Positions 1 through 48,595 of a DNA stretch of 64,000 nt are shown here, piece by piece. Below the pieces are notes generated by a model. It saw nothing but the letters and a program-made list of their open reading frames with translations, was not told the DNA's origin and did not search any database. A program made the position numbers and the translations under genes. The stretch's first letter is position 1. Every line of letters begins with the position of its first letter. Source of the DNA: Nitrospirota bacterium (lineage in GTDB: Bacteria > Nitrospirota > Thermodesulfovibrionia > UBA6902 > DSMQ01); contig JACRGX010000076.1 of NCBI GenBank assembly GCA_016212185.1, positions 1 through 64,000 of the forward strand. Reading direction: 5' to 3'.

Positions 1-259
1 AGGCGCGGGTTTTTATCCTGGGGTTTTAAATACAAAAATTTATGATGAAATAATTACCGTTGCCAATGCAGATGCGGCTGATATGACAAGACAGCTTGCC
101 GTGAAAGAAGGCATTCTTGCAGGCATTTCCTCAGGCGCGGCCTTATGGGCGGCGCTTAAAGTATCGCAGAAAATCGGAAAAGATAAAAAAATTGTCGTTG
201 TCTTCCCGGACCGCGGAGACAGATATTTAAGCACGGGGCTTTTTAATCCGGCGGGCTGA
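1..259 (+). CDS. cysK: Cysteine synthase, C-terminal part (partial at window edge)
   Basis: The frame opening at base 2 encodes about 85 residues. They match the C-terminus of PLP-dependent O-acetylserine sulfhydrylase: an [17 protein letters not shown] segment that contacts the cofactor phosphate region, and the terminal [16 protein letters not shown] signature. The enzyme makes cysteine from O-acetylserine and sulfide in the cytosol. The N-terminus, including the PLP lysine, lies outside the window. The stop codon abuts the attC-like repeat that ends the minus-strand cassette array, so this gene is the chromosomal neighbour of that array. Cystathionine beta-synthase-type paralogues cannot be excluded from the C-terminus alone. 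Confidence 0.85.
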
Positions 260-313
260 TGCGGCAGTTAAGCCGCCGCGCTTTCCAGTGTCCACTTGAC
301 GCCATAGTTAGGT
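256..313 (-). repeat. attC-like site 1, after the HNH gene
   Basis: Read on the minus strand this 58-bp imperfect palindrome starts with ACCTAAC at 313-307, a perfect fit to the attC R'' consensus RYYYAAC. It then has arms GGCGTCAAG (303-295) and CTTAACTGCC (272-263), which pair with one extra unpaired base, the usual attC L-box hallmark. The expected terminal R' (GTTRRRY) is degenerate here (GCATCAG), next to the cysK stop. The size and the TCAAG/CTTAA boxes resemble classical short attC sites. The site lies directly 3' of the HNH gene in gene orientation. Confidence 0.55.
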
Positions 314-317
314 CATA

Positions 318-1130
318 TTAACTCTCACTTACTGCTTTTGCTATTTGAGACAAAACAGCATCTATATCTGTAACTTTACCAGCTATGGCTTTGTAGATTG
401 GCAAGCTACCTATTAGTAGCAGCTGCACATACACCACGAGATAATACTCATCATTTATTTCTTCGAGATTGACAGTCAGTTGATTGACTATGCTACTGAG
501 TTCAGATTCTTTAATTCCACCTATATAGTGTGATATATATTCGTTGTCACCGAGTATAACTTCTGGAAGTAAAGATAAATACCCATTACCCCTTAAGACA
601 GCAAACACATAGCTATGCGCAATTTTAGCAATCAAACGACACAGATCACCCCACATTGCTACGCAATCAATTTTTACACATGGATATCCAGATTCAGCCA
701 TCAATTTATCTAAACTTTTTTTATCTCCTTTCAGCTCAACCTTCATTTCTGGATTTGAATTCGACAGTTCCCTCCCTGCAATGAGACATGGCTCAGGAAG
801 CAATAGAGAAAGATAAAAGTTAGGGTGTTCCTCAACCGGCAATTTTACCTTAACCTCGTTTCCATCATGCTTGACAAAGGTTATAGGAAACTTATTAGGT
901 CTATCTTTCTTGCGGCGCGTAGGAAAGTTATACTTCGCCCTATATGGCCAATACATGTTCCTGGCGACTCTTTGCTCAAATTTTTTGGTAATATCAGCAC
1001 AACTATTACAGCTTGCTTTCTGCAATACTTCCCATCCATGGAGTGAAAGCGGAATAATGTGCTCATCAGAAAGAGGTCTTTCTGATGAGCCACAGTAAAC
1101 GCAAATATTGGCTGGAGGGTATATAGCCAT
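318..1130 (-). CDS. HNH endonuclease-like protein (integron-like cassette gene)
   Basis: A 270-residue protein with an N-terminal HNH_5-like zinc-binding nuclease core. It has a CVYCGS knuckle near residue 11, an EHIIPLSL active-site stretch near 24 and a second knuckle CNSC near 42. The rest is not recognisable and may carry specificity. HNH proteins of this kind cut nucleic acid and often belong to phage-defence or mobile loci; no target can be inferred. It is flanked on both sides by attC-like repeats and transcribed away from the promoter at 5036-5064, as expected for a gene cassette. The ATG at 1130 begins only 7 bases past the cassette boundary and has no strong Shine-Dalgarno. Confidence 0.7.
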   Translation of the reverse strand: MAIYPPANICVYCGSSERPLSDEHIIPLSLHGWEVLQKASCNSCADITKKFEQRVARNMYWPYRAKYNFPTRRKKDRPNKFPITFVKHDGNEVKVKLPVEEHPNFYLSLLLPEPCLIAGRELSNSNPEMKVELKGDKKSLDKLMAESGYPCVKIDCVAMWGDLCRLIAKIAHSYVFAVLRGNGYLSLLPEVILGDNEYISHYIGGIKESELSSIVNQLTVNLEEINDEYYLVVYVQLLLIGSLPIYKAIAGKVTDIDAVLSQIAKAVSES

Positions 1131-1137
1131 TTTGACA

Positions 1138-1276
1138 ACCTAACGCACAACTCACTGATGCAGACCACCGAATGACTTAAACGTGCCAAAAGACAATCCG
1201 CTAACTACAAGTCACTGCAAGCCTGAAAAGCGTCCTGTGGTCTGCATTCAGCGCAGTGACTTATTGTGCATTCTGT
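1138..1276 (-). repeat. attC-like site 2, after vsr
   Basis: A 139-bp imperfect inverted repeat. On the minus strand it ends with GTTAGGT (1144-1138), a perfect R' core (GTTRRRY). Nested pairing arms are GCACAA/TTGTGC (1145-1150 with 1264-1269), CACTG/CAGTG (1153-1157 with 1254-1258) and TGCAGACCAC/GTGGTCTGCA (1159-1168 with 1237-1246), with asymmetric unpaired spacers as in attC hairpins. The R'' half near 1276-1270 is degenerate (ACAGAAT). The last codons of vsr (stop at 1248) run into the right arm. Confidence 0.55.
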
Positions 1277-1658
1277 TTAATTTATGATTAACTTTGTTTG
1301 ACTTGATTTCGTGTTCCCAGACTCTAATCACTTGCCAGCCCTTTGCCCTCAATGTTCTTGTTATCTTCTTGTCTCTAATTTTATTTTTTTCAATCTTGTT
1401 GTTCCAGTAGTTTTCATTTGAAGCTGGCATTCGGCAATGCAAGGGGCAACTATGCCAAAAGCAACCATCAATAAACACAGCGGTTCTCTCTCTCAGAAAA
1501 ACAAAATCTGGATTGCCGATCAAAGGATAATTACGACGCCATCCTGTGATGCCCTTGTCCTTGAGGATAGAAACAAACTGAAGCTCTGTGGATTTATTGC
1601 CTCGGGACTTCACGCTTGCCATTATTTTTGAGCGTTCAGATTTTGAAAAGGTATCCAT
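1248..1658 (-). CDS. vsr: Very short patch repair (Vsr) endonuclease
   Basis: A 136-residue member of the Vsr family, which nicks 5' of T in T:G mismatches produced by deamination of 5-methylcytosine. Family signatures are all present: SERSKIMASVKSRGNKSTE near the N-terminus, the catalytic-site PDFVF and VFIDGCFWHSCPLH block near residues 50-72, and the C-terminal RAKGWQVIRVWEHEI. It starts 4 nt after the restriction-enzyme stop, so it is cotranscribed with the C5 methyltransferase whose mutagenic by-products it would repair. The C-terminus overlaps the attC-like palindrome, which fits a compact cassette. Confidence 0.92.
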   Translation of the reverse strand: MDTFSKSERSKIMASVKSRGNKSTELQFVSILKDKGITGWRRNYPLIGNPDFVFLRERTAVFIDGCFWHSCPLHCRMPASNENYWNNKIEKNKIRDKKITRTLRAKGWQVIRVWEHEIKSNKVNHKLNRMHNKSLR

Positions 1659-1662
1659 ATTG

Positions 1663-2400
1663 TCACTTAATGATTTCTATCCAAGAATCATCAAATTTGA
1701 TTGCCTTGAGGATGTCGGCGCGGTCTACTTGTGGAGGTTGCTTAATTCGTATCGCAAGTATGTCGTCAGGCACGTCTTCTATGATGGTAAACTGGGAACC
1801 GTGAGGCTGCCATGTGAAGATGTGCTGCTTGCTGTCCTTGCCAAATCCCTCAAGATTGTTTCTCTCGTTCCACTGCCACCAGAAGTTCTCAACTCTGTAC
1901 AAAATAGTTTCAAACTCAAAGACTGCCGCTTCCAGCAGGTCATCGGACTTAATCAAAACCACTGTCCTGACGTGTTTGTAGAGTTTGCGAATACTTGCTA
2001 CCCGTTCGTTCCAGATGGAGAGAATCTTCTCTCCGAGTTCATTCGGGTCGCACTCGCTAATTTCGCGGTCGCCAAAAGAATAAACAGGAGAATTCCGGCC
2101 AGATATCAGGCGGATTTTAGAAACTGTTGAAGGTTTTCTGTTCTTAACTGTCTTAGCTCCCCATGCTGTTTGTTGGAGAACTACATCGTCTAAACCGACA
2201 TTTGAGGGTTTCCATTTTGCGCCGACAAGTCGAGCAAATATTTCTTCCCAATCTGGACCTTCCAGTCTTGCCGTCCCACGCGATGCAAGTAAATACACAA
2301 GCTCGCGTCCCAAATTAAGTGCAAATTCTTTTGGGAATTTATTTAGCAGATATGGCGGCTTGTATTTCTCTACCGTTCTTAATTTTGGACTTTTTGCCAT
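1663..2400 (-). CDS. Putative type II restriction endonuclease partner
   Basis: A 245-residue protein I cannot assign to a named family from sequence alone. Position is the main argument: it overlaps the end of a DNA cytosine methyltransferase by 62 bp and is followed 4 nt later by vsr, the usual place for the cognate restriction enzyme. Near residues 60-80 the stretch GLDDVV then AWGAKTVK could be a variant PD-(D/E)XK nuclease core (acidic residue, then AK on the next strand). If correct, it cuts the sequence that the methyltransferase protects. It could instead be a regulator or a non-nuclease accessory. Confidence 0.55.
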   Translation of the reverse strand: MAKSPKLRTVEKYKPPYLLNKFPKEFALNLGRELVYLLASRGTARLEGPDWEEIFARLVGAKWKPSNVGLDDVVLQQTAWGAKTVKNRKPSTVSKIRLISGRNSPVYSFGDREISECDPNELGEKILSIWNERVASIRKLYKHVRTVVLIKSDDLLEAAVFEFETILYRVENFWWQWNERNNLEGFGKDSKQHIFTWQPHGSQFTIIEDVPDDILAIRIKQPPQVDRADILKAIKFDDSWIEIIK

Positions 2401-3445
2401 ATTTTGCCCTTTCTTCGAGCATCGTTACCTGTCCATTAACTATTGGATATTGAAGATTGTAGTAATCATATTCGTTGTAGCTGTTATGCCAGCTATGCGC
2501 TATGAATAAATTTCTTAGAACCGCTTTGGCTACAGGCACTGGAAGGCTGTTACCCGCCTGCTTTCTGGTTTGACTATAATTACATATGATGTTAAAGCTA
2601 TCTGGGAATCCTTGTAACCGTAACATTTCACGCAGAGTAAGCCTTCTCTCGCCGTTAACTAACAAATAGTTGTATGAAGCTCCAGCACGCAAAGCGCAGG
2701 AATATGGATATGCGCTGATATGTCCCGCTTTATTTTCATGCCAGATTGTCGGTTCTTTTGTGAGCTTATGTTTTTTTAGTCGGTTCTTTCTGATATGTTC
2801 TGAGGCATAGTATTGTTCAGGCACATAGTCTTCTAAAATCTCATGCAACGGGGTCATGGATATGCCGCCTTCCGGCCAATCAAATGAACAAGGTTTTTTA
2901 AATCCGATGATAAAAATACGCTCTCTCTTTTGGGGAAGTCCAAAATTCAGCGCGTTTAAAACACGAAAATCAGCATAATACCCTAACTCTCTTAATGCCT
3001 GCATAATCCGCTTGAGTGTCTTGCCGTTATTATGTCCTGCTAACAACTTAACGTTCTCTAGTAAAAATACAGATGGCTGCTTTGCTTTAAGTATGCGGGC
3101 AATATCAAAGAAAAGAGTGCCACGAGTGTCTTTAAATCCATGTCTGTGTCCAATAATGCTGAAAGGCTGACATGGAAAACCAGCAAGAAGAATGTCATGG
3201 TCTGGTATATCCTCGGCGTTGATTGCTGTAATATCTCCGATGGGTTTCTCTCCGAAGTTTGCTTCATAAGCTTTCTGGCAATCTTCGTCTATATCACTGG
3301 AAAACTTACATTTAATAGGTATTCCTAAATCAGCAGCAGCTTGCTCAATTGCCAAACGAAATCCACCAATGCCACAGAATAAATCAATGAATCTAATTGC
3401 CTTGCCGTTTTTCTTAATCAAATTTGACATGCTATAAGTTACCAT
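2339..3445 (-). CDS. DNA (cytosine-5-)-methyltransferase
   Basis: A 368-residue C5 methyltransferase that transfers a methyl group from SAM to cytosine C5 in a specific site. Conserved motifs appear in order: I (FIDLFCGIGGFRLA near 20), IV with the catalytic cysteine (GFPCQPFS near 90), VI (ENVKLL), VIII (QKRERIFIIGF), IX (RRLTLREMLRLQGFP) and X (QAGNSLPVPVAKAV). The target-recognition domain lies between VIII and IX. It is the first gene of a methyltransferase/endonuclease/Vsr group that sits between two attC-like repeats. An internal ATG at 3430 is an alternative start; neither has a clear Shine-Dalgarno. Confidence 0.92.
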   Translation of the reverse strand: MVTYSMSNLIKKNGKAIRFIDLFCGIGGFRLAIEQAAADLGIPIKCKFSSDIDEDCQKAYEANFGEKPIGDITAINAEDIPDHDILLAGFPCQPFSIIGHRHGFKDTRGTLFFDIARILKAKQPSVFLLENVKLLAGHNNGKTLKRIMQALRELGYYADFRVLNALNFGLPQKRERIFIIGFKKPCSFDWPEGGISMTPLHEILEDYVPEQYYASEHIRKNRLKKHKLTKEPTIWHENKAGHISAYPYSCALRAGASYNYLLVNGERRLTLREMLRLQGFPDSFNIICNYSQTRKQAGNSLPVPVAKAVLRNLFIAHSWHNSYNEYDYYNLQYPIVNGQVTMLEERAKYGKKSKIKNGREIQAAISAK

Positions 3446-3475
3446 TATCAGCGTAAGTTGTTCAATTACTTAAAT

Positions 3476-3613
3476 GCATAACGCCTTGATGACTGACGAG
3501 TGCCACTGTATGACGTTGAAAAGCAAAAAACGATTTGCAAACCTAAAACTACCACTGGCTAAAAAAGGGACCTGTGGCATTCGTTTAGCTGCACAACCTA
3601 TTAAGCGTTCACT
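3476..3613 (-). repeat. attC-like site 3, after the KAP gene
   Basis: A 138-bp imperfect palindrome. On the minus strand it starts AGTGAACGC (3613-3605) and ends GGCGTTATGC (3485-3476). The arms AACGC-TTAAT and ATCAAGGCGTT pair with one extrahelical base. Inner arms GAATGCCAC and GTGGCACTC pair with one mismatch. The terminal GTTATGC is identical to the sequence at 5002-4996 just before the KAP coding region, as expected if a cassette lies between two recombination points. Confidence 0.55.
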
Positions 3614-3618
3614 GAACA

Positions 3619-4968
3619 TTACTGTGTAAATGTAAATGTAGACATAGAGTTAAATATAAAAGGAATAACACTTTGTCTTTGTGAATCATACATTCCAGTT
3701 TTAGCAAAATAATCTTTTGGCTCTATTTTCTTTAAATCCTCGTCACTCATCAAACAATATCTAAGAAGCCAAGTTAGCGGGTGTTTTTCATTTTTGCCTT
3801 CAAACCAATCGGTTACTAAATATTGCAAGTCAAAACTATCATATAGTTCTTCATACGTACACTTGCTTTCTCTTAATTTTTGGTAAATCCCTGGATTAGC
3901 AACCTTAACGATGGCAAGAAATGGGATAAGGATTTCATGATAGTTGTTTAGTGAGTACATGGTAGTTTTTACTAATATTATGTTGACTACTATTTGCTCC
4001 AGTTCTCTCAATGATAATGAGCAATGTCCTATATAATCTTTCATGAAATCGTTAAGATTTTCATCATGTTGTGAAGTAATTTGATAGTTGTGTAATTTCA
4101 TTAAATGATGGTAGTACGTCCATAAATCACTTCCATATTTTGACGCATTTTTAGGAAGAGAGCACCAAATATTTACAAATTTTTGAAGATATTGATTAGC
4201 CTTAATGCCAGAACCATATTGACATCTTACTGATTCTTCAATTTGTTCACGATTCATTACTAGAACAAAAACAATCTTTTGTACGGAGAAGACATGTTTT
4301 ATTTTTTCAAGGAGTTCAAGCGCAAATGTTGGCTTACACCTATCAAGTTCATCAATTATAAAAACTACCGGTTTACCATCGCTCGACACAGCACCAGCCA
4401 GCTCCTGTAAAGTCAAACGAAAATTATTAAGACATGCCTTATCTTCTTTGTAGTTATCAAAAACGTGTGATAAATATTGTTCGGTTGTTTTTGCTGCTTC
4501 GTCAGCAATATCTTTATCAGCGCCTAAGTTTTCCAATTCCGTTCCATCAAGTACACCTATCGTTAATGCTTTTATTCCTATTTTCATACCTGACTTTAGC
4601 AACACTTTGCTGGCTTGAACGGCTTTATCTTTATATTTCTTTATCTTTTCTTCTGGCACCTTCAGAGCTTTTGCCAAATCGTAAATCTCACCAGAAAGTG
4701 CGGTAAAGGGGTCATCCATGTAATCATTTGAGAAAGCGTCAAAATATATGCTTTTAATGTTGTTTTCAGTTAGGTAGCCTCTCCACATTTTTATGAATGT
4801 AGTTTTCCCCTCTCCCCATTTAGCGTCTAATGCAATAATTAGTTCATCCTCAATATTTGATATTAATTTATATAAGGCTTCTCCAAAAGGTTTTCGTTTA
4901 AAAATATCCTTTCCATTGGCAAAGCCCTCAGTTTCAGAAATTTCAAGAGGAGGTATTGAAAGTTTCAT
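3619..4968 (-). CDS. KAP family P-loop NTPase (integron-like cassette gene)
   Basis: A 449-residue KAP-type P-loop NTPase. The Walker A motif is AKWGEGKTTF at residues 49-58, and the Walker B region FIIDELDRCKP lies near 210, where KAP proteins have this D-E-L-D-R-C pattern. No clear membrane insertion is visible, unlike many KAP members. Bacterial KAP NTPases include phage-exclusion proteins such as PifA of F, so a defence role is plausible but not shown. I chose the ATG at 4968 (MKLSIPP). The longer in-frame ATG at 5004 lies upstream of the GTTATGC boundary and so outside the presumed cassette. Confidence 0.8.
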   Translation of the reverse strand: MKLSIPPLEISETEGFANGKDIFKRKPFGEALYKLISNIEDELIIALDAKWGEGKTTFIKMWRGYLTENNIKSIYFDAFSNDYMDDPFTALSGEIYDLAKALKVPEEKIKKYKDKAVQASKVLLKSGMKIGIKALTIGVLDGTELENLGADKDIADEAAKTTEQYLSHVFDNYKEDKACLNNFRLTLQELAGAVSSDGKPVVFIIDELDRCKPTFALELLEKIKHVFSVQKIVFVLVMNREQIEESVRCQYGSGIKANQYLQKFVNIWCSLPKNASKYGSDLWTYYHHLMKLHNYQITSQHDENLNDFMKDYIGHCSLSLRELEQIVVNIILVKTTMYSLNNYHEILIPFLAIVKVANPGIYQKLRESKCTYEELYDSFDLQYLVTDWFEGKNEKHPLTWLLRYCLMSDEDLKKIEPKDYFAKTGMYDSQRQSVIPFIFNSMSTFTFTQ

Positions 4969-4995
4969 AAGCTTATATCTTTCTTTGCTTTGTAC

Positions 4996-5002
4996 GCATA
5001 AC
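4996..5002 (-). other. Cassette boundary core (attI-like GTTATGC)
   Basis: On the minus strand GTTATGC at 5002-4996 repeats the last seven bases of attC-like site 3 exactly. It sits between the strong promoter and the first cassette gene, where an attI recombination point is expected. The identification rests on this heptamer and its position only. Confidence 0.4.
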
Positions 5003-5035
5003 ATTTACATTTAAACTTATCCTATATTTAGCAGC

Positions 5036-5064
5036 ATTATATGGCGAAAAAAGGGAGATGTCAA
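5036..5064 (-). promoter_or_regulatory. Perfect sigma70 promoter driving the cassette array (Pc-like)
   Basis: The minus strand has TTGACA at 5064-5059, a 17-bp spacer and TATAAT at 5041-5036, a full consensus match. Transcription would start near 5029 and run through the KAP gene, the methyltransferase group and the HNH gene, all on the same strand. A strong promoter just ahead of the first cassette is the usual integron arrangement. Confidence 0.8.
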
Positions 5065-5198
5065 GCAAATAGCCTACACATTGAGTAATTTATTATTGGT
5101 CTCTATTGGGGAGTTCTGCATTTACAGCCGGCGGGTTAAAAAACCTCTTGTCAATAAAGTAATTCATAGCTATAATGTCAACATCTGACAACAGTCGG

Positions 5199-5263: not shown

Positions 5264-7693
5264 ATGATTAAGAAAGTGGAAATGGAAAATCTCTACAAAT
5301 GCTGCGAACCGTCAGAACTGCCGTTTAATTCAACCGATGATATCCCTTCATTAAAAGAAACCATTGTACAGGAGCGGGCCTTAAAAGCGCTGGATTTCGG
5401 TCTGGGAATTGACAGCCACGGATTTAACATTTATATCTTAGGCGAGAGCGGCACAGGCAAAATGACTACGATTAAAGCCATCCTCTCTGAAAAGGCAAAG
5501 GACGAGCATGTGCCTGACGACTGGTGCTATGTCTATAATTTTAAAAATCCCGATGTGCCGAACTCACTGAGCCTTCCGCCAGGAAAAGGCATGTCCTTTC
5601 AGAAGGATATGGATGAATTGGTAAATATCCTGAAACAGGAAATACCAAAGGTCTTTGAATCAAAAGAGTATGAAAAGCAGAGAACCAAGACCTTTGAGGA
5701 ATTCCAGCAAAAGCAAAAGGTGCTTTTTTCAGAGCTTGAGCAGGAGGTTAAGGAAAAAGATTTTTCATTACGCAAGACCGTAAGCGGTCTTGCGCTGGTC
5801 CCGGTAAAAAAGACAGGTGAATCTCTGAGCGAGGAAGAATACGAAAGCCTTGAACCAAAAGTAAGGAAAAAGGTAGAGGAGATCGGAAGACAGCTTCAGG
5901 AAAAGCTTGATGATGTCGTAAGGCTGGTAAGAGAAGCGGAAAAAAAGGTTAAAGAGAAGATAGTCCAACTGGAAAGACAGGCTGCGCTGTCGGCAGTCGG
6001 TCATTTAATTGATGAAATTAAAAATAAATATAAAGAAACCCCTAAGGTGTCCGGCTTTCTTGACGATGTAAAGGAAGATATTCTTGAACATCTTGATGAT
6101 TTCAAGCCTCAGGAAGAACAGCCTGCGGTGCTGCCATTTATGAAGCCCGTAAAAACAGAGCCGTCATTCATAAGATACTCGGTAAATGTACTTATAAACA
6201 ACAGCGGTCAGAAAGGCGCGCCCGTTGTAATTGAAAGCAACCCTACGTATTACAATCTCTTTGGAAGGATTGAACATAAACTCCAATACGGCATGGCTAT
6301 AACCGACTTCAGTATGATAAAGGCAGGCTCCCTGCACAAGGCAAACGGAGGCTATCTTGTCATTGACGCCATGGACCTTCTCAAAAATATTTTTGCCTAT
6401 GATGCTCTGAAAAGAACAATCAAGGACAGGGAAATACGGATTGAAGACGTCTGGGAGCAATACCGGCTTATCTCAACCGTAACATTAAGGCCTGAGGCAG
6501 TACCCTTCAACGTAAAGGTCGTGCTGGTCGGAAACCCATGGCTTTACTACATGCTTTATAACCTTGATGAAGAATACAGCGAGCTCTTTAAGGTTAAGGC
6601 TGATTTTGAAAACCGCATGAACAGGAATAATGAAAACATGCTGAAATACGCAGGCTTTATGCGGACAAAGTGTGCGGAAAAAGGGCTGCTGCCGTTTGAC
6701 CGCAGCGGCATTGCAAAAATAGTTGAATACGGCTCAAGGCTTGCAGAACACCAGGGAAAGCTTTCAGTAAAATTTAGCGAGATCGTCGACATATTAAAGG
6801 AAGCAGACCACTGGGCAAAAAAAGAGAAAAGCACTATTGTAAATGCTTCCCATGTAAAGCAGGCGTTTGACGAAAAGGCCTACCGCCACAACAAGGTTGA
6901 GAAAAAAATACAGGAGGCTATTCAGGAAGGCACAATACTTATGGCTACAAGCGGCTCTGTAATCGGGCAGATTAACGGGCTTTCGGTCATTGACCTCGGA
7001 GACTACAGGTTCGGCGTCCCGTCAAGAATCACCGCAAAGACTTACATCGGCAAGGCAGGCATAGTAAATATTGAGAGGGAAACAAAAATGAGCGGGAAAA
7101 TTCATGAAAAGGCAATAATGATCCTTATTGCCTACCTTGGCGGAAAATATGCAAAAAAACAATCGCTCACCCTTTCGGCGTCACTTACGTTTGAACAGCT
7201 CTACGGCGGGGTTGAAGGCGACAGCGCAACCTGCGCTGAAGTCTACGCTCTTTTAAGCAGCATCTCGGGAATCCCGGTAAAACAGTCGGTTGCCATAACC
7301 GGCTCTATGAATCAGCACGGAGAGGTTCAGCCGATAGGCGGTGTCAACGAAAAAATTGAAGGGTTTTTTGAAGTCTGCAAAATCTCCGGGCTTGACGGAA
7401 TGCACGCTGTAATTATCCCGGGCAGGAATATTAAAAACCTGATGCTCAAAAAAGAGGTGATTGATGCTGTCAGGAACGGAAAATTCAGCATATACGCAAT
7501 TGATAATATAGAAGACGGCATAGAGTACCTCACAGGTATCAAGCCGGGAGAACTGCAGCCCGACGGGAACTACCCTGAGGGTACGATGAATTCCCTCGTT
7601 GCAAAAAAACTCCAGGAGTTCTCTGAGGCCATGAAGGAGAAAAAAGAATCAGAGAATAGCAACGAGGCAGGAAAAGAAAAAAACAATAAGTAA
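5264..7693 (+). CDS. Lon-like ATP-dependent protease (LonB/YcbZ-type)
   Basis: An 809-residue AAA+ protease of the COG1067 type. The N-terminal ATPase has Walker A GESGTGKMTT near residues 60-69. A charged coiled-coil-rich insert follows at about 130-270. The C-terminal Lon-type S16 domain has catalytic Ser654 in EGDSATCAE and Lys697 in GGVNEKIEGFF. Their 43-residue spacing is that of the classical Lon Ser-Lys dyad. No N-terminal Lon substrate domain is present. A good Shine-Dalgarno (ggagg) precedes the ATG. It probably degrades damaged or regulatory proteins in the cytosol. Its stop overlaps the next start by one base. Confidence 0.9.
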   Translation: MIKKVEMENLYKCCEPSELPFNSTDDIPSLKETIVQERALKALDFGLGIDSHGFNIYILGESGTGKMTTIKAILSEKAKDEHVPDDWCYVYNFKNPDVPNSLSLPPGKGMSFQKDMDELVNILKQEIPKVFESKEYEKQRTKTFEEFQQKQKVLFSELEQEVKEKDFSLRKTVSGLALVPVKKTGESLSEEEYESLEPKVRKKVEEIGRQLQEKLDDVVRLVREAEKKVKEKIVQLERQAALSAVGHLIDEIKNKYKETPKVSGFLDDVKEDILEHLDDFKPQEEQPAVLPFMKPVKTEPSFIRYSVNVLINNSGQKGAPVVIESNPTYYNLFGRIEHKLQYGMAITDFSMIKAGSLHKANGGYLVIDAMDLLKNIFAYDALKRTIKDREIRIEDVWEQYRLISTVTLRPEAVPFNVKVVLVGNPWLYYMLYNLDEEYSELFKVKADFENRMNRNNENMLKYAGFMRTKCAEKGLLPFDRSGIAKIVEYGSRLAEHQGKLSVKFSEIVDILKEADHWAKKEKSTIVNASHVKQAFDEKAYRHNKVEKKIQEAIQEGTILMATSGSVIGQINGLSVIDLGDYRFGVPSRITAKTYIGKAGIVNIERETKMSGKIHEKAIMILIAYLGGKYAKKQSLTLSASLTFEQLYGGVEGDSATCAEVYALLSSISGIPVKQSVAITGSMNQHGEVQPIGGVNEKIEGFFEVCKISGLDGMHAVIIPGRNIKNLMLKKEVIDAVRNGKFSIYAIDNIEDGIEYLTGIKPGELQPDGNYPEGTMNSLVAKKLQEFSEAMKEKKESENSNEAGKEKNNK

Positions 7694-8610
7694 TGCAAAA
7701 GTCCCTCCGGAGGCAAACTATCCTGCGGCTTATTGAAGCCGCTTTATGCATTTTCATCATGCTGATTTTCGGAAGCCTCCCAAAGAGGCTGTCGCTTATG
7801 GCAGGTGAATTCCTCGGGCTTTGCTTGTTTTTTCTGCTGGGTAAACGGAGAAGAATTGCCCTTAAAAATATTGAGATAGCGCAAAACGGAGGATTAACGC
7901 TTTCAGCCTCCCCGTCAAAGACAGTGCGCAGTCATTTCATATCCCTCGGCAGGTCCTTTTCAGAACTTTCATTGATTTCATTCGGAAGGGATTCTCTTAT
8001 GAAAGACATCACCTTTGAAGGCATCGCACACTATAAAAAAGCAAAAGAAAAAGGGCGGGGAGTCCTCATAATTACAGGGCATTGCGGGAACTGGGAATTA
8101 TTGTCGCTTGCATGTTCACGGAATGGATTTCCGCTCTCTGTAGTTGCAAGACAGATGAATAATCCTTATCTGAACAGGTTTTTAGAAAGGCTCAGGACAA
8201 AATTCGGGAATAAAGTTGTTTACAAATCAGGCGCCCTTAAAGAGGTGCTCGGTATACTGAAAAAAGGCGGGACTGCCGGCATTCTCATGGACCAGAGCGT
8301 AACAGAAAACGAGGCCGTGATAACAGAATTTTTGGGAGAAAAGGTCTATGCTATGAAAATACCCGCACTGCTTGCAATAAAGACAGGCGCCGCAGTTGTG
8401 CCTATATTTATCAAATATCTCGGAGGAGGCAGGCACCGCGCATGGTATGAAGAAGAAATAACAATCATGGAAACCGGAAACATAGAGCATGATACTGTTT
8501 CCAACACAAGGCTTTTTTTAAGCAGTATAGAAAAATATATAAAGGAAACTCCGGCGGAATGGTTATGGATTCACAGGCGCTGGAAATTAAGTCATGGCAG
8601 ACTGTACTAA
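7693..8610 (+). CDS. Lipid A lauroyl/myristoyl-type acyltransferase (LpxL/HtrB family)
   Basis: A 305-residue member of the LpxL/HtrB family. It has an N-terminal hydrophobic anchor (residues 12-50) and the acyltransferase motif GHCGNWELL near residue 130, which supplies the catalytic H(x4)E pair. A second conserved block, GILMDQSV, lies near residue 197. It adds a secondary acyl chain to lipid A on the inner face of the inner membrane. It starts one base inside the Lon-like stop (TAATG) and overlaps the heptosyltransferase by 17 bp, so the three genes are translationally linked. Which acyl chain it transfers cannot be read from the sequence. Confidence 0.88.
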   Translation: MQKSLRRQTILRLIEAALCIFIMLIFGSLPKRLSLMAGEFLGLCLFFLLGKRRRIALKNIEIAQNGGLTLSASPSKTVRSHFISLGRSFSELSLISFGRDSLMKDITFEGIAHYKKAKEKGRGVLIITGHCGNWELLSLACSRNGFPLSVVARQMNNPYLNRFLERLRTKFGNKVVYKSGALKEVLGILKKGGTAGILMDQSVTENEAVITEFLGEKVYAMKIPALLAIKTGAAVVPIFIKYLGGGRHRAWYEEEITIMETGNIEHDTVSNTRLFLSSIEKYIKETPAEWLWIHRRWKLSHGRLY

Positions 8611-48497: not shown

Positions 48498-48595
48498 GGG
48501 AGTGCATAGGGTTCTGGTGTCCCTCCCGGACTTCAAATCCGGTGTTTCCCGACAAAATCGGGAAGGGTGGGTTCGATTCCCACACGCTCCCGCCA
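48498..48595 (+). tRNA. selC: tRNA-Sec (anticodon TCA)
   Basis: 98 bases that fold as a selenocysteine tRNA. The acceptor GGGAGTG pairs with CGCTCCC (one G-U). The anticodon arm is CCGGA-CTTCAAA-TCCGG with anticodon TCA. A long variable arm TTCCCGA-CAAAA-TCGGGAA follows, then the T arm GTGGG-TTCGATT-CCCAC, discriminator G and an encoded CCA. It inserts Sec at UGA together with SelB at 41176. Confidence 0.95.

Follow-up and report, generated by a model that had tools for sequence, protein, structure and literature searches.

Integron cassette arrays that lack an integrase are usually regarded as decayed scraps. IntegronFinder sets them apart as CALINs (at least two attC sites, co-oriented cassettes and no intI nearby), a known class that is proposed to consist of degraded integrons, and whose number is inflated by draft assemblies (PMC9024848); the program recognises Pc and attI in class 1 integrons only. 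CALINs and integrons with inactivated intI in Xanthomonas have lost their integrase and have arrays stabilised at ectopic loci (PMC12444791). Sequences of attI in unusual positions have been described in class 1 integrons, where, in Delta-attI-type cassettes, attI lies apart from its own intI and is the recombination site of a cassette (PMC12901181). The integron of the Nitrospirae isolate Kmv42 (L124) is complete, with a full intI (TIGR02249, 405.8 bits; cut-off 265).

The array described here occupies positions 258-5137 of the window, by which is meant the whole stretch of DNA analysed, 64 kb from the start of contig C76; the draft genome amounts to 2.33 Mb and has 103 contigs. Judging by named records with the same R-M-V (restriction, modification, Vsr) cassette and attC type, the lineage is probably Thermodesulfovibrionia (Nitrospirota). 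It is very probably an ectopic, integrase-less CALIN that has kept its Pc promoter and its attI and was inserted between cysK and lon. It resembles the CALIN class in every defining respect and differs from it in the recognisable Pc and attI and in a cassette made of three genes, for restriction, modification and Vsr (R-M-V). With the Xanthomonas arrays it shares the lost integrase and the ectopic, stabilised location; the phylum is another one, and retention of attI at ectopic loci is not noted in the available text of PMC12444791. Like the Delta-attI-type cassettes it has an attI apart from its own intI, which, however, lies upstream of the whole array. With the Kmv42 integron it has in common a homologous Pc-attI and the R-M-V cassette, which is cassette 1 there; that integron differs in having an intI, in its other neighbours and in the attC behind R-M-V (~86 nt instead of 132 nt). 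The kind of element is already known; the variant lies in the combination, a portable R-M-V unit behind a Pc and an attI that have been kept. A limited search of the literature found no account of Pc-attI retention in ectopic integrase-less arrays. The five genes from 318 to 4968/5004 all lie on the minus strand, which confirms the initial annotation. The features of the locus are these:

2-259, plus strand: 3' end of cysK (PF00291, 1.3e-11), flanking the insertion on its left; synteny with G001, at 94% identity, reaches position 257
259-313, minus strand: truncated terminal attC, with R'' ACCTAAC (313-307) and L''/L' arms and no GTT R' before cysK (sequence inspection)
318-1130, minus strand: HNH protein, 270 aa (PF14279 HNH_5, E 3.1e-5, under the gathering score); cassette 3, about 259-1143
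1138-1269, minus strand: attC B, which closes the R-M-V cassette; R' is GTTAGGT (1144-1138) and R'' is GCACAAT (covariance model R1, 95.0 bits, E 1.6e-21)
1248-1658, minus strand: Vsr mismatch endonuclease (TIGR00632, 112.7 bits; cut-off 97.85)
1663-2400, minus strand: conserved 245-aa protein accompanying the methyltransferase, probably a restriction endonuclease (adjoins the methylase in 19 loci)
2339-3445, minus strand: C5 cytosine DNA methyltransferase (PF00145, 1.6e-89; M.HhaI, 1.8e-65); cassette 2, 1144-3481
3476-3606, minus strand: attC A, which closes the KAP cassette; R' is GTTATGC (3482-3476) and R'' is GCTTAAT (R1, 79.2 bits, E 1.5e-17)
3619-5004, minus strand: KAP P-loop NTPase, likely start 4968 (PF07693, 8.6e-41; PADLOC PDC-S20, 1.5e-100); cassette 1, 3482-5001
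4996-5041, minus strand: attI, recombination site GTTATGC (5002-4996), 37 of 46 positions identical to the intI-linked attI of Kmv42 (L124)
5036-5064, minus strand: Pc promoter TTGACA-17-TATAAT; the distance to the attI GTT is 62 nt, as in L124, and 60-64 nt in five integrons linked to intI
5093-5137, minus strand: truncated ParE/RelE-family cassette gene, of which the 3' end (NPPAVNAELPNRDQ and stop) is left upstream of Pc; its counterparts are the 3' end of L049:6069-6380, a cassette gene of toxin-antitoxin type, and three other loci
5264-7693, plus strand: LonB/LonC-like protease, right flank (domain search); also the neighbour of cysK in G001

The consensus promoter and the GTTATGC noticed ahead of the first unit in the initial annotation are real and correspond to the bona fide Pc-attI of L124, the match running from the -10 element to R' with identical spacing. 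Against its 37 identities, the runner-up in 64 kb reaches 27, and none of 100 shuffled windows exceeds a maximum of 30. A position-weight model of five intI-linked attIs ranks the site first in the window but not beyond shuffles, at a score of 28.1 against a shuffle maximum of 28.9; the L124 comparison is the decisive one. Pc and an attI homologous to intI-linked ones, the marks of an integron platform, are thus both present. This bears directly on the reading that the cassettes came by chance to a secondary, attG-like site behind a housekeeping promoter, a site that was never an attI. Cassette integration through attG sites in E. coli is described in PMC12444791, and a similar Pc-attI-like leader stands directly before ispH in G017:C79 (L114:190-300), with no cassette between; that leader, which calls for caution, is either an ordinary promoter or an attI that has been emptied. 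However, the 46-nt match to an intI-linked attI is unique in the window, lies beyond 100 shuffles and keeps the same 62-nt spacing, the leader type is rare, and a cassette or cassette-like gene comes next at most of its class-wide sites, all of which makes integration at a chance site improbable.

The comparison at cysK that had been proposed for relatives finds the site empty in G001, of the same genus. Because cysK and lon adjoin there, with homology stopping at window position 257 and restarting at 5138, the array is, on this comparison, an insertion, or else it was cleanly lost in G001. The ends of the insertion are not base-precise, since the short intergenic sequence has diverged. An 8-bp repeat, CCGGCGGG, found at both ends looked like a possible target-site duplication, but this reading was dropped because the right copy is coding sequence of the ParE/RelE-type remnant. 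Since positions 5093-5137 are the 3' end of that gene, the zone expected to hold the intI promoter has been replaced by debris of another cassette. Elsewhere in the window, a selenocysteine tRNA gene lies at 48498-48591 (RF01852, 69.6 bits).

No intI was found in the window by tblastn with an IntI over the 64 kb, and the array is flanked only by lon and cysK, so that the intI beside attI that makes an integron complete is missing at this locus, and the absence of an adjacent integron integrase is that of a CALIN. The genome's own assembly contains one clear C-terminal IntI fragment (~135 aa, on C69), which is also found in G003, and no full-length intI, although in a draft of 103 contigs one could be unassembled. 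Together with the retained Pc-attI, these observations fit the earlier suggestion that the array has lost its integrase or lies away from it. A TIGR02249 match over the cut-off is present in 23 of 41 genomes. Short C-terminal IntI-like fragments also occur in the genome of the window (G000) at the end of C94, at the start of C26 and at C44:52774; one and the same fragment terminates both C94 and C26, so the assembly is probably broken by repeats derived from intI. A recombinase at C42:148-957 was rejected as an IntI: it skips model region 174-235, in which the extra domain of IntI lies. That the array is a complete integron whose intI was lost merely in draft assembly has in its favour that integrons often break assemblies and that drafts overestimate CALINs (PMC9024848). 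It is nevertheless very improbable, given that the array and both flanks share one contig, that the upstream region of lon starts at 5138, that the cassette-gene remnant occupies the expected 5' region of intI, and that cysK and lon are adjacent in the sister genome.

The imperfect palindromes themselves are present where they had been placed; two of the three proved to be attC sites, and the third, at 256-313, is incomplete. Covariance model R1, built on seven attCs from related genomes, mostly beside intact intI and with the sites of the window excluded, matches both internal sites, the test by which the attC assignment could have fallen; its third-best match in 64 kb scores 11.5 bits, against 95.0 and 79.2. 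In the R1 helix 86% of cells are paired and 13 pairs show compensatory changes on both sides, and pairing drops to 27-40% in slid versions of the helix. R1-type attCs are present in 35 of the 41 genomes searched, and the window's own genome has three further ones, two on C44 and one on C23. The two on C44 form a cluster (G000:C44:5760-7359, L115) with an FRG-like gene of 425 aa between them and no intI nearby. A home-made R''/R' scanner supplied the seed attCs from relatives and is by itself underpowered for the sites of the window, which it missed because their R'' boxes are degenerate; Rfam gave no match to an attC family. Two full sites are what a CALIN demands. The terminal site (259-313) is unmatched by R1; its R'' ACCTAAC, a few bases past the HNH stop, is the exact complement of the (G)TTAGGT at the 5' end of the HNH cassette, and a GC-rich hairpin lies inside it. 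The internal R'' boxes, GCACAAT and GCTTAAT, have AAT for AAC and so depart from a perfect RYYYAAC. Because of these boxes and of the terminal attC without R', the present mobility of the array is doubtful.

Its three cassettes, in a single orientation, carry the KAP NTPase, the three-gene R-M-V unit and the HNH protein. The methyltransferase is closest to M.HhaI among solved structures, from which GCGC may be guessed as its site, and a C5 methyltransferase accompanied by Vsr is the signature of a type II restriction-modification system with a V endonuclease. Close relatives of the 245-aa protein occur on 19 contigs, adjoined by the methylase in all and by Vsr in most. The protein has no sequence match in Pfam, PADLOC, the PDB or plasmids; its AlphaFold model (pLDDT 87.8) gave nothing significant in a fold search, the weak matches including several restriction enzymes. 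It may well be the cognate restriction endonuclease. The PDC-S20 profile spans residues 13-425, most of the KAP protein, and marks its gene as a likely candidate for defence. A homologue of the HNH protein, 31% identical, is present in one genome among the 230 others of the class; elsewhere the KAP and HNH cassettes have distant homologues only. The proposal that the cargo serves phage defence is accordingly well supported for R-M-V (methylase, Vsr), likely for KAP (PDC-S20) and undecided for HNH, with its sub-threshold domain.

The cassette-wise variation on which the initial annotation had staked its reading is found: R-M-V is flanked by other cassettes elsewhere, and the site is empty in G001. 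In L128 (Thermodesulfovibrionia, DeMMO2_3) the R-M-V unit has an attC at each end and unrelated small genes on both sides; near-identity with the window begins exactly at the GTT of attC A, and at the other end it extends past R'' before fading within attC. In L122 the unit has a 132-nt attC and neighbours that are different again. The L128, L122 and L124 contexts are those of a gene cassette that moves alone, with boundaries G|TTRRRY, and by such comparison of contexts R-M-V is shown to be an independently moving cassette. Its R'' is GCACAAC in L122 and L128, and the 5' end in L128, GTTGTGC, is perfectly complementary to it; the counterparts in the window are GCACAAT and GTTATGC, which suggests decay. 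GCACAAC is also found just behind Vsr in L124, L125, L132 and L138. The attC of the cassette lies at 1138-1269 in the window, at L122:2017-2148, at L128:2896-3029, at about 7138-7227 in L124 and L138, and at about 7138-7210 in L125. R'' and the outer arm are kept, and the cores and lengths vary: the site is 132 nt long with arms ATGCAGACC or CGAGTACC, or it measures about 86 nt or about 65 nt, which looks like exchange or homogenisation of attC cores within arrays. An ordinary defence island with terminators or REP-like repeats for palindromes, which the co-oriented, defence-type genes and the GC-rich hairpin in 259-313 might recall, is scarcely credible in the face of covariance matches with a bulged base and R boxes, cassette-precise homology breaks and the complete integron in L124, which together refute the terminator or REP-like reading of the two internal palindromes.

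If the array is a CALIN with its own Pc and attI, IntI acting on folded attC bottom strands would have placed the cassettes at the attI of the window, Pc would drive all three as a single transcript, and the cargo would restrict phage or other foreign DNA; the array would by now be inactive unless an IntI encoded elsewhere moves it. Copies of Pc-attI without intI recur in relatives. In G002:C21 (L049:1723-1919) a Pint-Pc-attI segment, which across 197 bp shares 99.5% identity with the copy linked to intI in G002:C17 (L079:9210-9406), lies behind an aconitase-type gene, keeps approximately the first 30 bp of intI and is followed by cassettes with attCs. The copy in G004:C28 is 87% identical to that of G002, is cut just inside the intI start codon region and has cassettes next. 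In G007, C16 has 44 bp of the attI of its own intI platform at 93%, then cassettes; C31 has a leader of the window's type, then cassettes; and the copy on C50 has diverged further (80% identity across 118 bp), with no strong attC found there. These three are draft genomes, and any single copy might be a misassembly. A small cassette protein (IETIAIGHGIKNLNRLNK) is common to integrase-less arrays of two families (L049:5010-5240 and L149, about 8113-8340).

The notion that the integrons of the lineage are distributed systems, in which one intI platform serves several ectopic, intI-less Pc-attI 'satellite platforms' in trans, is tentative and, on balance, unlikely. Were it true, each satellite Pc-attI would give its own first cassette a promoter, and the array of the window would be a satellite devoted to defence. 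The R-M-V unit, three genes in ~2.3 kb, travels as a single integron cassette. With docking site and promoter surviving in the window, the cargo should still be open to expression, and an integrase acting from elsewhere could refill the array; the recurrence of intI-less Pc-attI copies in relatives makes trans-acting, multi-site integrons directly testable.
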